Virus record (IMG/VR): IMGVR_UViG_3300021961_000758
Location: 1 to 21,121 of that record
Length of the DNA: 21,121 nucleotides
From: a virus
Strand: one strand, 5' to 3'
Positions 2,361 to 19,291 of the stretch are shown here, piece by piece. The translations under genes were made by a program, and so were the position numbers. The notes beneath the pieces are model-generated. The model saw nothing but the letters and a program-made list of their open reading frames with translations. It did not search any database and had not been told where the DNA came from. Position 1 is the stretch's first letter. Each line of letters starts with the position of its first letter.

Positions 2361-2365
2361 TTGGT

Positions 2366-2373
2366 AGTAAATA
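2366..2373 (+). promoter_or_regulatory. Weak late-promoter-like site before dnaJ
   Basis: AGTAAATA is a poor match to the late core and ends only eight bases before the dnaJ start codon. If used, transcription would begin almost at the ATG and give a nearly leaderless mRNA. No clear Shine-Dalgarno sequence is present there. Confidence 0.25.
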
Positions 2374-2381
2374 AGTGTGTT

Positions 2382-3305
2382 ATGTCACATTATGCTACCC
2401 TTGGTATTAAAGAAGATGCTACATCAGCTGAGGTTAAGAAAGCGTTTCGTAAACTTGCCGCAGAACACCACCCTGATAAAGGTGGAAACGAAGAAAAGTT
2501 TAAGCAAATAAACGAAGCCTATCATACTCTCAAAGAAGATAGCACACGACAACAATACGACGCCCAACGACGCATGGGCGCGAATCCATTTGCCAATGGT
2601 CCTTTTAGGCAACATAGAACGCCACATGGATTTAGTTTTTCCTTCTCTGATGATGGAATGAATGCAGGCGGATTTGCTGACGGTAGTTTTCCTGACGATA
2701 TAGGTGAAATATTTAGACATATGACCGGACGTTCTCCTAGAGGACAAAGTTATAATCAAGAAAAGCGTAATAAAGATATTAGGGTAAATCTTAGAGTTGG
2801 TCTCCAAGAGATTATGAACAACCAAAGCAAAACATTATCAGTACGCAAAAGCAGTGGGGAAAACGAAACGCTATATGTTACTATTCCAAGGACCACTAGG
2901 ACCGGAACTCGCATACGTTATCCTGGTTTAGGAGACGACATGTTTACGAGTTTGCCCAGAGGAGACTTATACGTAGAGATTACCATTGACAATACAGATA
3001 AATTTACATATAATGGTGATGATCTTTACACTAAAATTGAAATTGATGCATTTGATGCAATGACTGGAGGACATACAGACATAGACGGTATAGATGGTAA
3101 AAAGTTTACATTGACTATTCCTGCTGGTACCCAACCAGGAACAAAAATGCGTATACCAAACCAAGGGCTATATAAAAGCAATAACAATGACGAACGAGGA
3201 CATTTGTTATTGACTATAGATGTTAAAATTCCTAAAGTTTATGAAAAATTTACAGATCAAATTGCTGAACTAAAAGAAAACATAATGAGAGAGAAGAACA
3301 AATGA
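2382..3305 (+). CDS. DnaJ/CbpA-type (type B) J-domain co-chaperone
   Basis: A 307-residue protein. I chose ATG 2382 (MSHYATLGI) over an upstream in-frame TTG because J domains begin this way. The J domain spans about residues 2-65 with the HPD tripeptide at 30-32 followed by KGG, and ends in QQYDAQRR. A Gly/Phe-rich linker follows (about 65-120). The C-terminal half holds two beta-barrel substrate-binding domains (IRVNLRVGLQEIM; then ALTIPAGTQPGTKMRIPNQGL-like motifs) with no CXXCXGXG zinc repeats, so it is CbpA/type B rather than classical DnaJ. It would stimulate host DnaK and deliver clients. The stop overlaps the ClpA-like start by ATGA, so the two are translationally coupled. No phage DnaK or GrpE is in view. 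A consensus sigma70-like sequence lies inside the gene. Confidence 0.92.
   Translation: MSHYATLGIKEDATSAEVKKAFRKLAAEHHPDKGGNEEKFKQINEAYHTLKEDSTRQQYDAQRRMGANPFANGPFRQHRTPHGFSFSFSDDGMNAGGFADGSFPDDIGEIFRHMTGRSPRGQSYNQEKRNKDIRVNLRVGLQEIMNNQSKTLSVRKSSGENETLYVTIPRTTRTGTRIRYPGLGDDMFTSLPRGDLYVEITIDNTDKFTYNGDDLYTKIEIDAFDAMTGGHTDIDGIDGKKFTLTIPAGTQPGTKMRIPNQGLYKSNNNDERGHLLLTIDVKIPKVYEKFTDQIAELKENIMREKNK
2986..3014 (+). promoter_or_regulatory. Perfect-consensus sigma70 promoter sequence inside dnaJ
   Basis: TTGACA at 2986-2991 and TATAAT at 3009-3014 are separated by exactly 17 bases. Both hexamers are perfect consensus. The expected start, near 3021, lies about 280 bases before the ClpA-like gene, so it could transcribe clpA separately. 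It lies in coding sequence and may be fortuitous. Confidence 0.45.
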
Positions 3306-5605
3306 TACAAAATAATCCAGAGATTGAAGCGATTGTGCAATCTGCAATGGACTATGCAGTAAAGAACCAACACGAATATGTTACACTAGAACATTTACTA
3401 TATGGTATCGTTACATATCCAGCGTTTCAAAAACTGCTAGTACACGCCGAAGTTGATGTAGATGGATTAACTGCTGATATTGATCATTATGTTAAAAAGC
3501 AAACACATCTTGTGCCTAAAGAAAAAAGAGAAACATCACCTAGAAAAACACATGCATTAGAAAGAGTTTTTAATCGTTCGTTTACACAGGTTCTGTTTAG
3601 CGGACGTAGCCATGTTCAAGTAATTGATTTATTCCTAAGCATTGGTGCAGAAAACAACAGCTATTCTGTTTATTTTATGGTAAAGTATGGAATTGATCGT
3701 GGTAAACTTGTTGACTTATACAACGAACGCTGGTCTGGCATCACAACTAAACAGGTTATGGCTAATACACAGGCAGATGCTATCCTCGAAGAATTTTGTA
3801 TTAACCTAAACAAGCTCGCACAAGAAGATCGTATCGATCCTGTTATTGGCCGTGAGCACGAAATTGAAGAAATTGTACAGGTACTTGCAAAGCGTACTAA
3901 AAGCAACGTACTAATGGTTGGCGATCCTGGTGTAGGTAAAACAGCAATCGCAGAAGGTTTTGCTAAACGTATTGTAGAAAAGCATGTTCCTGAATACCTG
4001 TTAGATCATACCATTTGGAGTTTAGATGTAGGTACACTACTCGCCGGATCCAAGTACCGAGGCGAATTTGAAGAAAAACTACAGAATGTTATTCGTGCGC
4101 TGAAGTCTAAAAAGAAGTGCATCTTGTTTGTAGACGAAGCACACCAAATGCGTGGCGCAGGTGCAGGCTCAGGTTCCAGCGTAGATTTTGCAAACATGAT
4201 CAAGCCTGCTATTAGCAAGGGCGAAGTCAAAGTTATTGCATCAACAACTTGGGAAGAATACACAGAGTCATTTGAAAAAGATCGTGCGCTGATGCGTAGA
4301 TTTTATAGAATGACCATTGAAGAGCCTACACCAGATGTAGCCAAAGACATCCTACGTGGAATACGCAAATACTTTGAAGAGTTCCACGGAGGTAAGATCA
4401 CAGACGAAGCACTAGACAGTGCAGTTGATCTAAGCGTTAGATATCAAAGCGACAAGAAGTTGCCAGACAAAGCATTGGATCTTGTAGACACAGCCTGTGC
4501 AAAGGTAAAACTACGCAAGATTGATTGGCAACTCACACGCAGAGATATCATTGAATCACTCAGCAAAGCAACTAAAATTCCAGTGGAGCAGTTAGGGGTT
4601 GGTGATAATAATCATACTATTACTAAACTAGAGACACAGATTAAGGAAAAACTGTTTGGGCAAGACGAAGTTGTTGACCAACTTCTAGAAACAGTGTATG
4701 TTAGTAAAGCAGGACTTAAAGCAGTTAACAAGCCCATTGGAAGTTATTTGTTTATTGGTCCCACTGGTACAGGTAAGACAGAACTTGCTAAACTACTCAG
4801 TGAGTTTATGGGTATGAAGTTGCTACGCTACGACATGAGTGAATACCAGGAGAAGCATGCGGCGGCAAAGTTAATCGGTGCACCTCCTGGCTACGTAGGT
4901 TACGATGACTCAAACCTTGGCGGTGGCTTATTGGTTTCAGACATTGAGAAGAATCCAAATTGTGTCATACTCTTTGACGAGATTGAAAAAGCACACCGTG
5001 ACGTAACCAACGTATTACTAGCATTGTTAGATGAGGGTGCTGTTACAAGTTCGAATGGTAAAAAAGCAGATGCACGTAACGCAATTATTATTCTAACATC
5101 AAACCTTGGAGCGGCGGCAGGCGATGCTAATGCTATTGGTGTTGGACGTGATTTCCAAAAGCAAGGCGAAGATGATAAAGCGGTTAAGAACTTCTTTAGG
5201 CCAGAGTTCCGCAACAGACTTGATGGCATTTGTAAGTTTGGAAAACTCAATGAGCAGGCAGTTAAGAAGATTGTTTGCAAGTTCATAAACGAACTCAATG
5301 AACTACTTAGCGAAAAAGAAATGCGTGTACGTTTAACAGAGGAAGCAATCCAACACATTGCAGATGTTGGATACGACCCTAAGATGGGTGCAAGACCTAT
5401 TGGACGTAAAATCAACGAATTGATTAAAATTCCGCTAAGTAGAAAGATAATTTTTGAAAATGTTTCATCACAATCTGTAATTATTGTTGATTATGTCAAC
5501 GAAGAGATTGTGTTTGACATTCAAAAGATTGAAATAGATTTTAACCAACCAAGTGTAGACGTAGATGGATATATCGTACTGGACCAGTTTAAACCTAAAG
5601 CATAA
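3302..5605 (+). CDS. clpA: ClpA-type double AAA+ unfoldase
   Basis: A 767-residue Hsp100 ATPase, close to the length of bacterial ClpA. Residues 1-145 are a two-repeat Clp_N domain. AAA1 has Walker A GDPGVGKT at 207-214, Walker B ILFVDEAH at 274-281 and ALMRRF as likely arginine finger. AAA2 has Walker A GPTGTGKT at 486-493, Walker [12 protein letters not shown] from 555, sensor [16 protein letters not shown], and sensor 2 GARPIGRKI. There is no ClpB/Hsp104 coiled-coil M domain, so it is ClpA-like. Residues 612-614 read IGV, where ClpA has its ClpP-docking IGL loop, so it may dock host ClpP. A short extra C-terminal tail (VDGYIVLDQ) is present. It likely unfolds proteins with the adjacent J protein, either for degradation through host ClpP or for remodelling during virion assembly. 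No phage ClpP is seen. Confidence 0.95.
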
Positions 5606-7850: not shown

Positions 7851-8960
7851 ATGTTTGTTGCAGATTTATTAGAAGCAGAACGCCAAGTTGTTGCTATTTT
7901 CCCTGGGCGTTTTCATCCTTTCCATAAAGGTCATGCCTATATGTACCAGCAACTTGTTAGCAGGTACGGGCGTGACCGTAGTTTTATTGCAACCAGCAAT
8001 AAAGTAGAACTTCCAAAATCTCCATTTAGTTTCAGTGACAAATCAACTATGATGCGTGTCGCTGGAATTCCTGCTGATAAAATTATTGAAACACGTAATC
8101 CATATGCTGTTCCAGAACTAGTAGAACGTTATGATCCTGCTAGTACTGTGTTAATTTTTGCTGTTAGTGAAAAAGATATGGACGAAGATCCTCGTTTTAG
8201 TTTTAAACCAAAGAAAGATGGGTCTCCAAGTTATTTGCAGAGATTGCCCAGTGATCTCAAAAATGCAAAAACACTGGACCAGCATGGTTATATCACTACA
8301 TTGCCAACACTAGATTTTTCGGTACTAGGCGAACCAATGCGTAGTGCTACTCAGCTTCGTGCAATGTATACTAATGCTGATGATGAAAAACGAAAAGATA
8401 TCATCAAAGACCTCTACGGATCCTACAGCGAAGAGATTAAGAGTATTATGGATAACAAATTAAACGAAAGCAAAGACGACTGGCGTACACAACTACGTGA
8501 GGCGGCAGGAAGAATTGTAAAAGGAGTTAACACAACTCCAGACGTTGGTGTAAATCAAATTAGTATCGAAGCCGCAAAGTTTGGTAACAAAGTAGACAAA
8601 GACGGTCGTCCACCAACATTAAGTAAAAAAGTAAAAGGCAAGTCAACCAACGTTGCATTTAACCTTGGACTGACAGAAAGTTTATACCAACTTGACAAAG
8701 ACGATCCAATGAACAGCGAAGTGGTAATTGGTGGTTTAGGACGTATGAGAATAAAAACTTTGCACAAGGATCTCTCAGCAAAATTCAAAGAGCTTTCTGA
8801 TATGATGGCGTCTATGGATCCTGGTCAAGTCTTACAAGCAAGATTTTTATTGTCAAGAAGTCCGCTTTCACACATGATGAAAGCACTAGACGATGCTTAT
8901 GACGAACTTAAACAGATCAAGCGCAAAGGTGGTGTTAATAGCAGAGGTATTGACTTATGA
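7851..8960 (+). CDS. Cytidylyltransferase-like nucleotidyltransferase with C-terminal extension
   Basis: A 369-residue protein from ATG 7851 with AGAGGA upstream. Residues 12-175 form a HIGH-superfamily nucleotidyltransferase: FPGRFHPFHKGH at 17-28 carries the HxGH site (H25, G27, H28), and RSATQLR at 164-170 matches the family's second (I/R)S(S/A)TxLR signature. These enzymes join a nucleotide to a phosphate-bearing partner, as in NMN, pantetheine-phosphate or glycerol-phosphate activation; the substrate here is undetermined. After about residue 200 there is a 170-residue Lys/Asp-rich helical extension (SLYQLDKDD, then MASMDPGQVLQARFLLSRSPLSHMMKALDDAYDELKQIKRK) that ordinary family members lack. 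This may tether the enzyme to the virion. The late promoter and structural neighbours support packaging or late use. ATGA overlaps the next gene. Confidence 0.85.
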   Translation: MFVADLLEAERQVVAIFPGRFHPFHKGHAYMYQQLVSRYGRDRSFIATSNKVELPKSPFSFSDKSTMMRVAGIPADKIIETRNPYAVPELVERYDPASTVLIFAVSEKDMDEDPRFSFKPKKDGSPSYLQRLPSDLKNAKTLDQHGYITTLPTLDFSVLGEPMRSATQLRAMYTNADDEKRKDIIKDLYGSYSEEIKSIMDNKLNESKDDWRTQLREAAGRIVKGVNTTPDVGVNQISIEAAKFGNKVDKDGRPPTLSKKVKGKSTNVAFNLGLTESLYQLDKDDPMNSEVVIGGLGRMRIKTLHKDLSAKFKELSDMMASMDPGQVLQARFLLSRSPLSHMMKALDDAYDELKQIKRKGGVNSRGIDL

Positions 8961-13215: not shown

Positions 13216-13935
13216 ATGCCAACTTCAGTAGCTAAAAAGAATCATATTGGATTTGCTCTTGTAAGTTCAAATCGCAATCGTATTCTATTTTTTCACACAG
13301 ATTACGAAAGAACCAAACGCATACAATTATATTATATGCGTAATGATCTCCTATACCTGTTTCCTGTTAATGCATTTATGCTACAAAAACATACTTTGCA
13401 GGCTAGAAGAGACAGTTCGCTGGTTGAATTTACTGACAAAACTTGTATCAGATTTACTACAAGTAACGCAAGCATTTTACAAGTTGAAATGGATATTGCA
13501 CCATTTCGCTTGAAAAACATGAGAGTATACCAACACACTAAACCAAGTGCAGATGAGTATAATATACACGCTAATTTATGTTATGCAAGTGAAATCATTG
13601 AACAAGTTGAAATAGCCTGTCAAAATAGATTAAAACATCTTGAGGACAAGTTTGAATATGTATTAAAAGGATATGAAATGTTTCATAGTTTCTGCGTAGA
13701 AAATTTTGGCGAGAGCAGGAACATTGACAGTATGTTTAAGCATGACATCAATGACGAGTTACAATTTGTAGATGCTGTTAACAGCGTTAAACGTGAAATA
13801 AACAACGCTATCATGTCTATGGATTTCACCGCAGATACCTTTAAAGAAGAACTTAAACAAACACTAACAGAAATCCGTCAGAGAGATATTAACCAACAAA
13901 GTGAATTAATATTTAGGTTAATAACACTACAATGA
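13216..13935 (+). CDS. Partner protein 1 of the triplicated PP-loop module
   Basis: A 239-residue protein of unrecognised family, first gene of the overlapping PP-loop run. The N-terminus (HIGFALVSSNRNRILFFHTD, then YERTKRIQLYYMRNDLLYLF) aligns by pattern with the starts of the partners at 15231 and 17133: a short strand, loop, strand, then D-x(0,1)-Y followed by a helix with K-x-(I/V)-Q. The second half is helical, with a possible coiled coil, and ends in short helices (LKQTLTEIRQRDINQQ). There are no catalytic Cys/His motifs, signal peptide or membrane helix. It overlaps the PP-loop enzyme by ATGA, and the same order recurs twice downstream, so it is likely a dedicated subunit, substrate carrier or recognition protein. 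That role is inferred from gene order alone. Confidence 0.75.
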   Translation: MPTSVAKKNHIGFALVSSNRNRILFFHTDYERTKRIQLYYMRNDLLYLFPVNAFMLQKHTLQARRDSSLVEFTDKTCIRFTTSNASILQVEMDIAPFRLKNMRVYQHTKPSADEYNIHANLCYASEIIEQVEIACQNRLKHLEDKFEYVLKGYEMFHSFCVENFGESRNIDSMFKHDINDELQFVDAVNSVKREINNAIMSMDFTADTFKEELKQTLTEIRQRDINQQSELIFRLITLQ

Positions 13936-15104
13936 GAGAACTATTTGAACACAATCGGCTAGTAGATAATTCCTATATAAGACGACATGTTGACCCAAAA
14001 GCGATAGGAAAATACGGCGACTATTGGTTATACAGTTTTTGGGCTATACCTATGCTCAATGACCTACGAAGTCGTAGTCTTGAATTTACTACGCCGTGGC
14101 TAAACCACACTCATCCAGCATACATGCAACTTCCAACGTTTGAATATACTAACAAGTCGCTCAGCGATATCTTAGACGAACGTGCCGTAGCACTACATCA
14201 ACAAGCAACAAGAGATAACAAGCAAGTTTGGATCATGTGGAGCGGAGGTATTGATAGTACTACAATGCTCACAGCATTTATTAAAAATGTACCTGAATCA
14301 GAAATTGATAGATATTCAATTGTTATGAGTGCAAACAGTATTGCTGAAAACTTTTATTTCTATCAAAAATACATTCATAATCGTTTTCGTTTGATAAATT
14401 GGTTAGAGCTTGATTTAAATCAAGAACTACTTGAAGATACTATTGTGCTACACGGAGATCCTGCTAACGCATTATTAAGTTGCCCAACAGTTAGTGTATT
14501 TGCTCCATTGGTTGAGTCTGGCAAGCACTTGTTACCATTCAGAGAAAACGTAGGCACAATCATTGACACTCTTGAAGCATTTGTTACAAAGAGTAGAGGT
14601 GAAGTTAAAGCTGGATGGGCAGAATGGTACATCAACAAACTAGCTGATGCTATTCCTAAATATGATCAGGCCACAAGTATTGCAACATTTTGGTGGTGGA
14701 ACTATGTAAACTTCAAATGGCACGGAAGTATACTACGTCCATTTTTCTTTACACGTTCGAGTACTAACAAACCCATCAGTGAACAAGAGTTTAGATACTA
14801 TTACGATACTTGTTTTTATATCAACGATGACTTGCAAAATTGGAGTTATTCAAACATTGATCGTATTGTACAAACTCCGTTTGATTACAAACCGTTGATG
14901 CGCGATTATATTTACGATTTAAACAAAGACACGTTGTACCAAAAATACAAAGGCTTTAAAGCCAGTAGAAGAACGAACTTAAACCAAGCTCAACAGGTTG
15001 CAGACGATATGCCAATGGTCTATGATCAGCACTGGGTTGGGCATCCGAAATCTAATAGATTAATGGAAACTGTAATAGAATTACTCAATGAATTTGAAGG
15101 ATAA
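13932..15104 (+). CDS. PP-loop ATPase paralogue A (asparagine-synthetase-like, altered site)
   Basis: A 390-residue protein with the PP-loop WSGGIDS (SGGIDS at 104-109), the ATP pyrophosphatase signature of AsnB, NadE, GuaA and relatives. Paralogue-wide blocks follow: F-T-T-P-W (52-56), SLSDILDERAVAL before the loop, ENFYFYQKYI, HGDPANAL (174-181), WWWNYVNFKW, QNWSYSNI and MRDYIYDLN. The second signature departs from its sisters: they read HGDPGDCL-x-GPS, which looks like the asparagine-synthetase G(D/E)GADE(L)FGG motif, whereas here D, C and G are replaced (HGDPANALLSCP). This copy may be catalytically weakened or have changed specificity. There is no N-terminal Cys glutaminase domain. The reaction is presumably adenylation of an acid followed by attack of an unknown nucleophile. 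It overlaps both neighbours. Confidence 0.82.
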   Translation: MRELFEHNRLVDNSYIRRHVDPKAIGKYGDYWLYSFWAIPMLNDLRSRSLEFTTPWLNHTHPAYMQLPTFEYTNKSLSDILDERAVALHQQATRDNKQVWIMWSGGIDSTTMLTAFIKNVPESEIDRYSIVMSANSIAENFYFYQKYIHNRFRLINWLELDLNQELLEDTIVLHGDPANALLSCPTVSVFAPLVESGKHLLPFRENVGTIIDTLEAFVTKSRGEVKAGWAEWYINKLADAIPKYDQATSIATFWWWNYVNFKWHGSILRPFFFTRSSTNKPISEQEFRYYYDTCFYINDDLQNWSYSNIDRIVQTPFDYKPLMRDYIYDLNKDTLYQKYKGFKASRRTNLNQAQQVADDMPMVYDQHWVGHPKSNRLMETVIELLNEFEG

Positions 15105-15231
15105 AATCATAGCGCCAGTAATTTTACTGTTGACAATTATAGCAATATCTGTTATATTTGTAACACTTGTTCCTCCAGGGGACCAACACAATCCACCTGG
15201 ACATACACTTGGAAGGCACATGTTACGTTGA
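15088..15231 (+). CDS. 47-residue single-pass membrane microprotein
   Basis: ATG 15088 lies inside the end of paralogue A (17-base overlap), and the TGA at 15229-15231 shares its last base with the next ATG (TGATG). The product is short: a basic N-terminus (MNLKDK), a hydrophobic stretch of about 22 residues (IIAPVILLLTIIAISVIFVT), then a Pro/Gly/His tail (LVPPGDQHNPPGHTLGRHML). It fills the only gap in an otherwise fully overlapping operon, which argues for a real gene. Against it, the ribosome binding site is weak and a strong sigma70 promoter sequence lies within it. If real, it is probably an inner-membrane peptide; it could be an anchor for, or substrate of, the PP-loop enzymes, which is speculation. 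Confidence 0.5.
   Translation: MNLKDKIIAPVILLLTIIAISVIFVTLVPPGDQHNPPGHTLGRHMLR
15130..15158 (+). promoter_or_regulatory. Strong sigma70-type promoter between units 1 and 2
   Basis: TTGACA (15130-15135), 17-base spacer, TATATT (15153-15158), preceded by an extended -10 TGT. Predicted start is near 15165. A possible hairpin, TCCAGG (15174-15179) with CCTGGA (15196-15201), lies in the leader. It would drive units 2 and 3 of the PP-loop operon with host polymerase, fitting early expression. Confidence 0.6.
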
Positions 15232-15950
15232 TGTACGGTTTAGTAAGTTTTCATCAAAATTTCTTTGTTCTGGTTAACGACAACTACAAGAACACAAAGT
15301 TAGTACAACATTTATTTGGGTCTCAGTTTCCAACGATGTGTGTTAACCTTAAATTATACAAATGCCGTACTGACGAAATTAGTCAAAAAAATTCTGACTC
15401 GTATGCATTAAGTCCACGTCTGGCTAGATTTAATGAAGCGGACACATCAGTTCATAGACTTGTTGATGATGATTGTTACATTGATACTAGAGAATCCTTT
15501 GGGTTAGCTGAACTCACAGAAGATCAACACACAATTAAAACAAATTTTAAATTCGTATACGAATTTTTAAACACTTATTTTAGTCGTTTAGCTTTGCTTG
15601 AAGAACGTAAATTAGCCGCAATTGACCAAAAAATTGAAGGTGTAAAACAATTAGAAGAATTCTTATTACTACAAACCGGCGAAGATGCTTTTATCAGCAC
15701 ATTGTCAGCAAACCAACAAGAGCGTATTCGCCGCGGCGAAGGTGTTGTTAAAAACTATAACCAACAACTACTTAACGCTATTATGAATCTTAACATCAAG
15801 AAAGATACTACAGAGTTGATTGGTTTGTTACAGTTTGAAATGCAAAGTTTTCAACCTGTACTAGCTTCAGGAAACAAACGTCAAAGCCAGGTAATTAGTA
15901 CTCTAGCTTCAAAAAGTTTAACTGACACAAGGAAACGTATCAATGGCTAG
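15231..15950 (+). CDS. Partner protein 2 of the triplicated PP-loop module
   Basis: A 239-residue protein, the same length as partner 1. ATG 15231 is chosen because it completes the TGATG overlap; a TTG one codon earlier is less likely. A GGAAGG at 15211-15216 is rather far away, so coupling with the microprotein probably matters. The N-terminus MYGLVSFHQNFFVLVNDNY followed by KNTKLVQHLFG matches partners 1 and 3 in strand-loop-strand pattern. The rest is mostly helical, including a probable coiled coil (LALLEERKLAAIDQKIEGVK). No known catalytic motif is present. It overlaps paralogue B by eight bases. The family is unrecognised; its role as partner of the following PP-loop protein is inferred. 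Confidence 0.78.
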   Translation: MYGLVSFHQNFFVLVNDNYKNTKLVQHLFGSQFPTMCVNLKLYKCRTDEISQKNSDSYALSPRLARFNEADTSVHRLVDDDCYIDTRESFGLAELTEDQHTIKTNFKFVYEFLNTYFSRLALLEERKLAAIDQKIEGVKQLEEFLLLQTGEDAFISTLSANQQERIRRGEGVVKNYNQQLLNAIMNLNIKKDTTELIGLLQFEMQSFQPVLASGNKRQSQVISTLASKSLTDTRKRING

Positions 15951-17136
15951 TGCAGAAGAATATTTTGATAGACTAATAACAGACGGTCTCGCTGAATCTC
16001 GTATGGTGCAAATGACTTCATTGCCACTAACACGACCAATAGAAAAAAATCAATCAGCAATGTATTGGAACAGTTTGATTAGAACTGTTATTGGTGTAAG
16101 TGACTGGAGATGTCGTACTGGAACATTTTCGAATCCTTGGAATAGCAAAAGTAGCATTGAGTTTGCTCCTCCGCCATTGGCATATACTCCAGATTCTTTT
16201 GATGATATTGCTAACACCAGAGCATTAGAACTATTACATGAAGCAAGAACAACCGACCGTCAACTGTTGGTACTATGGAGCGGTGGCATTGACTCAACAC
16301 TTGTGTTGACTAGTTTTATTAAAAACATGTTACCAGAAGATCAAGAGCGTATTGTGGTGTGTTGTAACTTTGCAAGTATTATAGAAAACACACAATTTTA
16401 CATCAAACACATTAGCAACAAACTTCAATGCATGGACTATCAAGAGTTTGATTTAACACCAAACCTAATGAAAAAGTTTATTGTTATTCACGGCGATCCA
16501 GGAGACTGTCTTCAAGGACCAAGCGTTCCAGCATATGCAAAGTTAATGCCGGACGGCACACATAAAAAACCTTGGAAGAATCATATTGCTGAACTAGAAC
16601 AGACCTGTCAGATGCACACAAGCAATCCTAGCTATACTGATGGATTCGGCAAGTGGTTTGTAGAACGTGTAAGTGAAAACTTAGAAGAAGTTGCTCCTGA
16701 AAATGTTACAACTATTGCAGACTGGTGGTGGTGGACTTACTATAATTTTAAATGGGAATTCAGTTGCCAACGTCCATTTTATTTTAGTAGACAAGATTAT
16801 ACAACCGAGTTTACAAAAGATTTGGTTGAAGACTATGCACGGAATACATACTTTAATACAGCAGACTGGCAGATGTGGAGTTACACCAACTTGCAAGAAC
16901 TGGTAGGAATGGATCGTAGTACACACAAACAGCATGCTAGAGATTATATATTTGAACTAGATCATAATCAAGTTTATTATGATACTAAGATTAAAACAGC
17001 AGGTGCACCAGCTAATTTAGAAGCTAGACGTACTTCAGATTTACCTTTCTATTTTGATCAAAATTGGAAAGGACATTACTGGACAGATACAGCAGTTGAA
17101 GAAATCTCAATAAAACTGTTGATGAGGTTTATATGA
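15943..17136 (+). CDS. PP-loop ATPase paralogue B (asparagine-synthetase-like)
   Basis: A 397-residue protein with AAGGA upstream. The PP-loop SGGIDS is at 113-118 in VLWSGGIDSTLVLTSF. The second signature HGDPGDCL-x-GPS, at 183-194, keeps the Gly-Asp-(x2)-Asp spacing of the asparagine-synthetase motif that handles Mg and pyrophosphate. Shared blocks with A and C include F-S-N-P-W (62-66), DIANTRALELL, ENTQFYIKHI, TIADWWWWTYYNFKW, QMWSYTNL, ARDYIFELD and FYFDQNWKGH near the end. It lacks a glutaminase domain, so the nitrogen or other nucleophile must come from elsewhere. It probably activates a carboxylate by adenylation; the substrate is unknown. ATGA overlaps partner 3. It is soluble, with no membrane segment. 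Confidence 0.88.
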   Translation: MASAEEYFDRLITDGLAESRMVQMTSLPLTRPIEKNQSAMYWNSLIRTVIGVSDWRCRTGTFSNPWNSKSSIEFAPPPLAYTPDSFDDIANTRALELLHEARTTDRQLLVLWSGGIDSTLVLTSFIKNMLPEDQERIVVCCNFASIIENTQFYIKHISNKLQCMDYQEFDLTPNLMKKFIVIHGDPGDCLQGPSVPAYAKLMPDGTHKKPWKNHIAELEQTCQMHTSNPSYTDGFGKWFVERVSENLEEVAPENVTTIADWWWWTYYNFKWEFSCQRPFYFSRQDYTTEFTKDLVEDYARNTYFNTADWQMWSYTNLQELVGMDRSTHKQHARDYIFELDHNQVYYDTKIKTAGAPANLEARRTSDLPFYFDQNWKGHYWTDTAVEEISIKLLMRFI

Positions 17137-17813
17137 GCGAACTTTATGCACTATACAACGTAAGAGCTAATAAATTTTTAATCACTGATCGTAGCTATGA
17201 GATATTGAAACAGATACAGTTTTTGTTTAGTCATAGAATTTTATTTTATGCTGTTCGTGTTAGTGATGTTAGAAACTACAGAGACGGTCTACTAAGCAAA
17301 GGTAGATATAAAAAACTAGGATTTGCAGACGCCAATAGAATACAGCTCAACACTGATATTCATCCTCGTAGTGATGAAAACATCAAGATTGTTAGCAATC
17401 CAGAAGACAACAAAGAACACGAACGTTTTTGTGAGCTTGCTGAATTTTATAGAGACTTTATACGAGAGTTTAACAAAGAATTTGGATTCTTTGCAGACAT
17501 CACACGCACACGTAGTCGTACTCAAAAAGTTTCATTGGAACAGTTTAGCGAGTTCTGTAAACTGATTATGCCCAATGATAAAGCCATACAAGATATGGTT
17601 CAGTTTGAAATAGACTTTAACTTTAGTATGATGAAGTATCTAAGGCAATACAAAGGTTTGGTGTTTGACATGATCTATGACATAGACATTGAACAACCAT
17701 TACCAGAGGTTAAAAAACAAATTATATCGGGTTTTAAAGAAATACCAGTTAAAGTGCATCCACAGCGTTGGATCACACCAAAAATCGTGGAGTGGCTCAA
17801 TGCGAACAGTTGA
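17133..17813 (+). CDS. Partner protein 3 of the triplicated PP-loop module
   Basis: A 226-residue protein overlapping paralogue B by ATGA, with GAGGT at 17124-17128. Its start, MSELYALYNVRANKFLITDR then SYEILKQIQFLFS, has the same strand-loop-strand and K-x-I-Q helix pattern as partners 1 and 2. A helical middle (ERFCELAEFYRDFIREFNKE, LEQFSEFCKLIMP) and a C-terminal part with QRWITPKIVEWLN follow. It is the most basic of the three partners and shares no obvious catalytic motif with known enzymes. The end overlaps the start of paralogue C by 14 bases. Function is unknown; pairing with a PP-loop enzyme is inferred from the repeated order. Confidence 0.78.
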   Translation: MSELYALYNVRANKFLITDRSYEILKQIQFLFSHRILFYAVRVSDVRNYRDGLLSKGRYKKLGFADANRIQLNTDIHPRSDENIKIVSNPEDNKEHERFCELAEFYRDFIREFNKEFGFFADITRTRSRTQKVSLEQFSEFCKLIMPNDKAIQDMVQFEIDFNFSMMKYLRQYKGLVFDMIYDIDIEQPLPEVKKQIISGFKEIPVKVHPQRWITPKIVEWLNANS

Positions 17814-18987
17814 ACAACATATTGATGAAATCGGCAACCGTGCAGATATGGTTGACAATCAGCTAATTGAGTTAGTTGAATGTGAAAATCCATATGGCAA
17901 ACATTGGCAACGCTACACAAGACTAAACATTGGTGTCAAAGACATACGCCCACGATTTGGAAAGTTCACCACTCCGTGGAATACTCCTAATAGAAAAGAT
18001 TTGTGGCCTTTTCCAAAACTACGCTATATCAGCGACAGTTTAGAAGATGTGCTAAATGATCGTGCGCTAGAACTATTTCAAAAAGCTCGAGACACAGATA
18101 GAGACATCTACGTTATGTGGAGCGGCGGCATTGATAGCTCAGGCGTACTAGCCGCATTTATACAAACGCTCAGCGAAGCAGATAGAGAAATACTAACTGT
18201 TGTTATGAGTACGGATTGTGTTCTTGAAAACCCGGATTTTTACAAACGTCACATCAGTGGTAAACTAAAAATAATTCAAGTCAATGATGTTGATGTTAGC
18301 GACGAATTTTTAGAAAAACATATGCTACTACATGGTGACCCAGGAGACTGTTTGTATGGACCTAGTATTGGTGCATTTGCCCACCTAATAGATAGCAAGC
18401 AACATCTATTGCCAGCAAATGAAAATAGACATCTTATCAAAACCTTTTACGATCGTCAACAAAGCAAATGGGCACACCCAGAATTTGGCGAATGGTATGT
18501 TAATAAAGTTGCAGATAACTTTGCCGAAGCCAATTTAGAAAATGCATATACTATTGCAGACTATTGGTGGTGGCACTATTTCAATCTCAAGTATCAATTC
18601 TCAATGCAACGTCCTCTACAGCACATGGTCAAAGACTACAAGCGTGGACTTAGAGAGGACCTTTATGCTAGGTTTATTAACGAAGTGTTCTTCCACACTG
18701 AACGTATGCAACAATGGAGTTATAGTAATCTCCAAACATTCTACGAAAAGGTGCATTTAGGCGAACGCGGAACCAAATGGCAAGCAAGAGACTATCTACA
18801 CAAGTTTGATGGTAATGATCGTTATTACTATCATAAAGTTAAGATTGCTAGTAATGCAACAGACCGTGAGCGTAGACAATTAGAAATCTCACCATTCTAC
18901 TATGACCATCGCAACTGTGGTTGGTATCCTTGGGAACCCGGGGTAAAAGAAGCAATTAAACACTTTCTGGAAAATTATCAGGGTTGA
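17800..18987 (+). CDS. PP-loop ATPase paralogue C (asparagine-synthetase-like)
   Basis: A 395-residue protein. I chose ATG 17800 (MRTVEQHIDE), with GGAG at 17789-17792, over a much longer frame opening inside the partner gene, because it gives a length matching A (390) and B (397). SGGIDS is at 108-113 and HGDPGDCL-x-GPS at 178-189. The other family blocks are present: F-T-T-P-W (56-60), SLEDVLNDRALELF, ENPDFYKRHI, TIADYWWWHYFNLKY, QQWSYSNL, ARDYLHKFD and FYYDHRNCGWYPW. All visible signature residues are intact, so this copy should be active. The stop codon lies inside the -35 hexamer of the next promoter. Chemistry by family is ATP-dependent adenylation with release of pyrophosphate; the substrate is unknown. 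Confidence 0.88.
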   Translation: MRTVEQHIDEIGNRADMVDNQLIELVECENPYGKHWQRYTRLNIGVKDIRPRFGKFTTPWNTPNRKDLWPFPKLRYISDSLEDVLNDRALELFQKARDTDRDIYVMWSGGIDSSGVLAAFIQTLSEADREILTVVMSTDCVLENPDFYKRHISGKLKIIQVNDVDVSDEFLEKHMLLHGDPGDCLYGPSIGAFAHLIDSKQHLLPANENRHLIKTFYDRQQSKWAHPEFGEWYVNKVADNFAEANLENAYTIADYWWWHYFNLKYQFSMQRPLQHMVKDYKRGLREDLYARFINEVFFHTERMQQWSYSNLQTFYEKVHLGERGTKWQARDYLHKFDGNDRYYYHKVKIASNATDRERRQLEISPFYYDHRNCGWYPWEPGVKEAIKHFLENYQG

Positions 18988-18996
18988 CAAAACCCT
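18980..18996 (+). other. 6-bp inverted repeat over the -35 region
   Basis: AGGGTT (18980-18985) and AACCCT (18991-18996) form an exact inverted repeat with a five-base loop, covering the stop codon of paralogue C and the -35 hexamer of the dsbA promoter. It could be an operator for a repressor, or a weak transcript hairpin. There is no U-tract, so an intrinsic terminator is unlikely. Confidence 0.35.
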
Positions 18997-19012
18997 ATAA
19001 AATAAGTATACT
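18984..19012 (+). promoter_or_regulatory. Strong sigma70-type (early) promoter
   Basis: TTGACA (18984-18989), 17-base spacer, TATACT (19007-19012). It matches 11 of 12 consensus bases at ideal spacing in the only non-coding gap here. Predicted start is near 19019, and an AGGAG (19025-19029) precedes ATG 19037. It should drive the dsbA-like, membrane-protein and DNA polymerase genes using host RNA polymerase. Confidence 0.8.
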
Positions 19013-19036: not shown

Positions 19037-19291
19037 ATGTCCATGTTTAATGCAGAACAAAAGGCCAAGCTAACCCAGCTTATCAATGAAGGTATTCAAG
19101 TCAAGCAAGAAGTTGAAGATTTAAATGCCGGTCTTAGCGACACTGTAAAAGCTATTGCAGAAGAGTTTGAAATTAAGCCAAGCGTTCTAAAGAAAGCTAT
19201 TTCTATCGCTCATAAGAGCAAACTAACCGACACCAACGAAGAACATGAAGTTCTAAACGATATTCTTGAGACTGTTGGTCGTACACTATAA
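19037..19291 (+). CDS. dsbA: DsbA-like double-stranded DNA-binding protein
   Basis: An 84-residue charged helical protein with AGGAG at good spacing. The core (LSDTVKAIAEEFEIKPSVLK, then KAISIAHKSKLTDTNEEHEV, ending LNDILETVG) follows the pattern of the T4 DsbA family: a helix, a short 'F.I.P..L.K....HK' segment, and an acidic C-terminal helix. T4 DsbA binds double-stranded DNA near late promoters and is thought to help late transcription; it is unrelated to the disulfide oxidoreductase of the same name. Here it is the first gene behind a strong early-type promoter and precedes DNA polymerase. The assignment is by pattern and size. TAATG couples it to the next gene. Confidence 0.75.
   Translation: MSMFNAEQKAKLTQLINEGIQVKQEVEDLNAGLSDTVKAIAEEFEIKPSVLKKAISIAHKSKLTDTNEEHEVLNDILETVGRTL

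Follow-up and report, generated by a model that had tools for sequence, protein, structure and literature searches.

The window analysed here is a 21.1-kb contig from an uncultivated virus (IMG/VR record IMGVR_UViG_3300021961_000758, 21,121 nucleotides [nt]) with a T4-like layout. Between positions 13216 and 18987, on the plus strand, it contains three successive pairs of genes, each consisting of an open reading frame (ORF) for a partner protein followed by an ORF for a PP-loop enzyme, in agreement with an earlier interpretation made from the letters alone (hereafter, the sequence-only reading). The first pair comprises p1 (13216..13935, 239 amino acids [aa]) and E1 (13932..15104, 390 aa), the second p2 (15231..15950, 239 aa from its ATG) and E2 (15943..17136, 397 aa), and the third p3 (17133..17813, 226 aa) and E3 (17800..18987, 395 aa from the ATG at 17800). 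The enzymes belong to a new family, which is unnamed, widespread in phages and found as one, two or three old pairs at a locus. The genes had been described as a fully overlapping operon, but E1 does not directly adjoin p2. A 47-aa ORF (15088..15231, plus strand) missed in the sequence-only reading lies between them, overlapping the stop codon of E1, and its TGA overlaps the ATG of p2, so the whole gene chain does overlap from end to start when this ORF is included. Its product is of the membrane type, with one hydrophobic segment and a conserved DQ(H/N)(N/K)PPGHTL tail, and the ORF recurs upstream from a p2-type partner at loci L004, L005, L009, L023, L025 and L029.

The three enzymes are paralogues, as had been proposed. 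Pairwise identity was 32% for E1 and E2 (E-value 5e-63), 30% for E1 and E3 (1e-60) and 36% for E2 and E3 (1e-87), and all the blocks named in the sequence-only reading (WSGGIDS, HGDP, WWW, WSY(S/T)N and an ARDYI-like block) are common to E1-E3. The SGG(I/L)DS pyrophosphate loop is present in nearly all of 51 relatives, and takes the invariant form WSGGIDS in the three window enzymes. The HGDP block is likewise found in all three, but the second motif is not uniform: it reads GDPAN..LLS in E1 and GDPGD..LxGP in E2 and E3, the LLS change also being found in L004 and L005/L006. Comparison with a second motif of the G-x-G-x-D-E-L-F-G-G type yielded a partial match for E2 and E3 (GDPGD-C-L-x-GP) and for the LFG-bearing relatives, and none for E1. 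This divergence suggests that the substrate pocket of copy 1 probably differs from those of copies 2 and 3. No N-terminal glutaminase domain was found in E1-E3, which have no cysteine at position 2.

The fold was assessed with an AlphaFold model of E3 built with 50 relatives (predicted local distance difference test [pLDDT] 93.6, predicted TM-score 0.92). The best match in the PDB was the hydroxyamidotransferase TsnB9 (7ylz; Z-score of 13.0 over 283 residues, positions 16-392 of the model, 11% identity), followed by asparagine synthetase, beta-lactam synthetase and carbapenam synthetase (Z-scores of 9-11 over 182-207 residues, with values of 10-11 for asparagine synthetase, AsnB and beta-lactam synthetase), with lower values for GMP synthetase (8.6) and for NAD synthetase and LarE (about 7). 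The hhalign comparison of the family with a bacterial PF00733 protein (95.7%, E-value 1e-8) aligned the PP-loop and the G-E/D-x-G-D-x-L-x-G motif; the corresponding value for phage QueC was 9% over 25 residues, with a single sequence as the query. The modelled fold is that of the asparagine-synthetase-type PP-loop group. Enzymes of this fold class adenylate a carboxylate and then form an amide, and, judging from fold and motifs, E1-E3 are likely to catalyse ATP-dependent carboxylate adenylation followed by amide formation. The adenylation chemistry put forward in the sequence-only reading is consistent with the predicted fold, which is of the carboxylate-adenylating asparagine-synthetase kind.

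Automatic annotation of relatives points instead to sulfur-transfer PP-loop enzymes of the PAPS-reductase, MnmA, LarE or DndC kind. Weak PHROG and PADLOC matches to PAPS reductase, DndC and QueC were obtained. Among annotated phages, tblastn against 50,697 records identified one remote relative, Pseudomonas phage Cygsa01, in which two remote family members annotated as tRNA 2-thiouridylase MnmA follow an S74 tail fibre gene and a gene for a glycine-rich protein (L107, 7709-9858). Nevertheless, the PHROG and QueC matches for which the extent is shown span just the SGGxDS loop region, the asparagine-synthetase group was clearly ahead in the structure comparison, and the C-x2-C-x2-C part of the QueC zinc motif (C-x8-C-x2-C-x2-C) was absent from all 28 paired enzymes and all 51 aligned family members. 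The QueC profile (PF06508) also gave no match in the window enzymes or their relatives. We consider a sulfur-transfer role very improbable, and the MnmA name of the Cygsa01 copies looks wrong.

The partners are far less alike (pairwise identity 12-21%), with direct matches that are barely detectable (E-values of 0.007 for p1 and p3 and 0.43 for p1 and p2), but p1, p2 and p3 joined a single family (hereafter referred to as c1; 46 ORFs by single linkage) once relatives were added. The best-kept residues include N13, Y22, K26 and Q29; K26 and Q29 are present in 28 of 29 partners and correspond to the K-x-(I/V)-Q start described in the sequence-only reading. The AlphaFold model of p3 (pLDDT 88.4) has a short alpha/beta N-terminus, modelled as a confident strand, and then long helices. 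No significant match to this model was found in the PDB, and only uncharacterised phage proteins were matched in BFVD (best E-value 7e-5). A likeness to CHMP3/CdvB, based on helical matches (Z-score of about 8.5), was rejected as being at chance level for helical bundles, and the Pfam matches of p1 (COG3_N, below the cut-off) and p2 were rejected as chance coiled-coil similarity.

An orphan helical protein encoded next to a PP-loop enzyme could be its substrate, with the enzyme attaching an activated carboxylate to the cognate protein, as Cap9 does with the CD-NTase and as proposed for QatC and QatB. The two-gene logic is shared, in that a PP-loop enzyme is accompanied by a dedicated alpha-helical partner without known fold relatives (PMC13279940). 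The phage partner is also fast-evolving, its gene lies upstream from that of the enzyme and overlaps it, and K26 and Q29 are almost invariant. However, the N-terminal glycine motif of the known QatB/Cap9-type substrates is missing, Gly2 being present in just two of the 29 partners; the N-terminus is predicted to form a confident strand rather than a flexible tail, and the enzyme has asparagine-synthetase-type proteins as its top PDB matches and lacks the QueC zinc motif. This explanation is, in our view, quite unlikely.

The scan of viral contigs yielded 65 loci, and 38 bacterial loci were also obtained. The same gene order was found in many other phages, in support of the sequence-only reading. 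Within the window's own group, three pairs are present in L004, in L005-L008 (near-identical among themselves) and in L009, the contig of which begins within E1; two pairs in L010, L023/L025 and L029; and one pair in L012, L013, L016, L018-L020, L024, L026 and others, including some loci on short contigs. All 26 distinct enzymes with an upstream c1 partner overlap the end of the partner gene by at least 4 nt. More distant enzymes have unrelated-looking partners (c5, c64), directly upstream and with an overlap of a few bases (1-10 nt for 11 of 11 enzymes paired with c5). Profile-profile comparison of the phage partner families (c1, c5, c64 and c79) and the bacterial ones (b2, b3 and b12) detected no homology among them, although some of the profiles were built from few sequences, making this weak evidence of absence; by eye, the families seem to have similar short strand-strand-helix starts. 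Copy number reached six enzymes in G016, a 244-kb record; G019 gave five matches, with one gene counted as two pieces. In the literature on PP-loop operons in phages, nothing was found on this enzyme-partner family.

The window-type enzymes form a single clade. Within the enzyme tree, E2 grouped with its orthologue, the first enzyme of phages with two pairs, and E3 with the second enzyme of these phages, whereas E1 is a long branch containing three-pair phages only; orthologues of p1 were similarly found only in the three-copy phages L004 and L005. The partner tree largely recovered the copy groups of the enzyme tree, with 19 of 25 splits shared, as against a maximum of three in 2000 label shuffles, indicating that partner and enzyme diverged together. 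Together, the two trees identify the copies as three old lineages maintained as pairs. A tandem triplication had been suggested: the three copies are there, but the term implies a single event, whereas the trees show three ancient lineages and do not support a recent triplication. The suggestion that each enzyme needs its own partner is consistent with the trees to the extent that each enzyme lineage retains its partner lineage; a need as such goes further than shared splits. The total tree length was 29.8 for the partners and 13.1 for the enzymes, so the partners have evolved about twice as fast, as had been surmised. Nonsynonymous divergence (dN) was 0.11-0.31 for the enzymes and 0.19-0.64 for the partners, with synonymous divergence (dS) saturated or nearly so, which indicates purifying selection on all six genes. 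A model in which one pair suffices and extra pairs add specificities fits better than a single three-step pathway, because there are three ancient lineages and phages with a single pair at the same locus.

The downstream flank, where present, usually corresponds to that of the window, in which the module is followed by a DsbA-like late-transcription regulator (19037..19291, plus strand; cluster c3; phrog_12534, 5e-19, and phrog_639, 2e-9), serving as a syntenic anchor, and a DNA polymerase-like frame identified by eye. The regulator has its own sigma-70 promoter-like site (TTGACA-17-TATACT; 18984..19012, plus strand), recognised by consensus match. A second site of this type, with the sequence TTGACA-17-TATATT and an extended TG (15130..15158, plus strand; 11 of 12 consensus matches), lies inside the 47-aa ORF. 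TTGACA-17-TATAAT or TATAGT occurs at the equivalent place in L005, L009, L023 and L025, and TGnTATAAT or TGnTATACT is present 6-7 nt upstream from the partner ATG in several phages with a single pair. The upstream genes at 7851 and 9269 carry exact T4-late-type TATAAATA boxes. A T4-late promoter for the module itself was considered and rejected: TTTAAATA lies 5 nt upstream from p1 both in the window and in L004 but is missing at this place from L005, and late-box matches of 7 out of 8 would occur by chance in 8% of 80-nt random sequences. The promoter-like sites suggest that p2-E2-p3-E3 may be expressed early or in the middle of infection, by the host RNA polymerase. To the left of the module are a spanin gene and a chaperone pair (2361-5605), in which a phage DnaJ with DnaJ and DnaJ_C domains adjoins a ClpA/ClpB-type double AAA+ protein.

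Early or middle expression would make a mainly virion-directed role less likely here. Modification of tail or other virion proteins by the enzymes is nonetheless suggested by several distant relatives located close to tail genes: those of Cygsa01 (S74 tail fibre), the X. albilineans locus, which adjoins Baseplate_J and a tail-fibre-like gene, and L068 (tail-fibre and neck genes). In the window group, by contrast, the module precedes the regulator and DNA polymerase, and its promoter-like site is of the sigma-70 type, not the T4-late type; most bacterial relatives adjoin a cupin rather than tail genes; we regard this role as decidedly unlikely. The cupin (about 210-280 aa) is uncharacterised, belongs to one family and lies no more than 1.5 kb from 24 of the 38 bacterial relatives. 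It is also linked to the distant phage enzymes of L033, L040, L041, L043, L087 and L088. It was rejected as a general component of the system because no cupin of this type is present in records from the window's own group.

QueC, too, forms an amide from a carboxylate in an ATP-dependent reaction (PMC13329287), and genes of the 7-deazaguanine pathway are present in several records carrying the module. FolE and QueD are encoded in G002, G003, G004, G009 and G005 (triple-, double- and one single-pair records); in G002, G009 and G005, the two genes are located within about 2-7 kb of one another, with QueE-like radical SAM and phosphoribosyltransferase-like proteins (L130, L131, L132). QueC (PF06508) was detected in none of these five records, which may be incomplete, but was detected in G019 (E-value 4e-51). 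Given the presence of FolE, QueD and QueE-like proteins without a recognisable QueC, 7-carboxy-7-deazaguanine can be considered a candidate substrate, but nothing beyond that. Under this explanation, the phage would make this compound and the PP-loop pairs would replace QueC, yielding an amide or another conjugate for the modification of DNA or nucleotides. However, the que cluster is roughly 13-20 kb away from the module, a TGT-family DNA transglycosylase was found in none of 11 records (possibly incomplete), and the bacterial neighbourhoods examined contained the cupin but no que-gene cluster. Moreover, one pathway step would not require three paralogues, the QueE assignment is based on a motif and a sub-threshold PF04055 match, and the que cluster of G005 holds an additional PP-loop protein (L132, 6207-7046). 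We consider replacement of QueC unlikely.

The explanation that we favour, with slightly more confidence than doubt, is that each pair consists of a glutaminase-less, asparagine-synthetase-type PP-loop amide ligase and a helical partner dedicated to it, which would bind the ligase and determine its specificity. ATP would be bound at WSGGIDS, the carboxylate of the substrate would be adenylated with the release of pyrophosphate, and an amine supplied by or with the partner would attack the activated carboxylate to form the amide. The glutaminase domain would have been lost or never present, and the partner would act in a physical complex with the enzyme. The pairs would have been duplicated long ago as units and would then have co-diverged under purifying selection. 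The conserved core probably consists of copies 2 and 3, with a host-type promoter driving their early expression, and copy 1, found so far in three-copy phages only, would have a remodelled active-site loop and probably a different substrate.

Several observations weigh against this explanation. E1-E3 gave no match to the PF00733 profile and no family member scored above its cut-off, the best scores being those of two of the 51 relatives (E-value of 0.005 at best), and the Foldseek TM-scores of E3 were low (0.38 at best). The family is thus remote, and, given the missed cut-off, we file the enzymes as remote relatives of PF00733 rather than as members. No recognisable c1 partner was present at four enzyme loci of the same clade, from three distinct lineages (L011/L030, L027 and L032). 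The congruence of the trees results partly from the co-inheritance of linked genes in the same phages, an explanation that does not apply to between-copy splits inside one phage. Finally, the promoter-like site within the 47-aa ORF has an empirical p of 0.006 in the window, but the promoter p-values come from best-of-180-nt scans without correction for the number of genes tested. A broader extension of the ligase-partner explanation, which strikes us as improbable, is a modular, multi-copy amidation or conjugation system in large phages, in which, early in infection, partner-steered ligases would attach an activated carboxylate, possibly 7-carboxy-7-deazaguanine made by the phage, to various targets (proteins, nucleotides or metabolites).

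Some loci have additional features. In L041/L042 (3692-10149), a single run of genes encodes four PP-loop enzymes, with genes for a glyoxalase-family protein, a cupin and a c5 partner in between. Proteins of the DctP family (TRAP solute-binding; PF03480, 5e-43), seemingly without a signal peptide, are encoded beside several enzymes in L125 (4908-5840) and L126 (7900-8844). A very divergent PP-loop protein (SGGYDS) lies between DctP- and TctA-looking transport genes in the triple-module phage G002 (L124, 2763-3944), and L038 (3-1814) has a 603-codon open frame within which a collagen-like GPTGPTG stretch precedes the PP-loop enzyme.

An entire enzyme family with a confidently modelled fold, shared motifs and a recurrent gene logic is currently either nameless or doubtfully labelled (MnmA, PAPS reductase, QueC). 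If each ligase is partner-steered, these phages provide a natural set of orthogonal ligase-specificity pairs. Among known systems, TsnB9, from the trichostatin A pathway, gave a near whole-chain structural match and has a carboxylate-activating PP-loop domain, but it has 576 residues in the structure, about 160 of which, presumably an amidotransferase domain, precede the aligned part; to our knowledge, it has no partner gene of the p1-p3 kind. The phage enzymes share the SGGxDS loop and the fold with the C-domain of AsnB, beta-lactam synthetase and carbapenam synthetase, together with a putative C-terminal lysine block recognised by motif and, for E2, E3 and the LFG-bearing relatives, a partial match to the G-x-x-G-D-x-L-x-G motif. 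They differ in lacking the N-terminal glutaminase-type domain and falling below the PF00733 cut-off, and their WWW and WSY blocks and partner are new with respect to this group. The resemblance to QueC (PF06508) and the phage QueC-like PHROG 1550, which also form an amide or nitrile on a carboxylate in an ATP-dependent manner, is confined to the PP-loop, and the zinc motif is missing from the phage enzymes. In QatB-QatC (qatABCD) and CD-NTase-Cap9 (type IV cyclic oligonucleotide-based antiphage signalling system, CBASS), a PP-loop enzyme is likewise encoded with a dedicated protein partner, and QatB is alpha-helical and without structural relatives, like the phage partner (PMC13279940). These systems have a QueC fold with a zinc site and an N-terminal glycine substrate motif, whereas neither motif was found in the phage pairs. 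If the phage ligases are partner-steered, the parallel with QatBC and Cap9 would place modules combining a PP-loop enzyme with a partner on both sides of the phage-host conflict.

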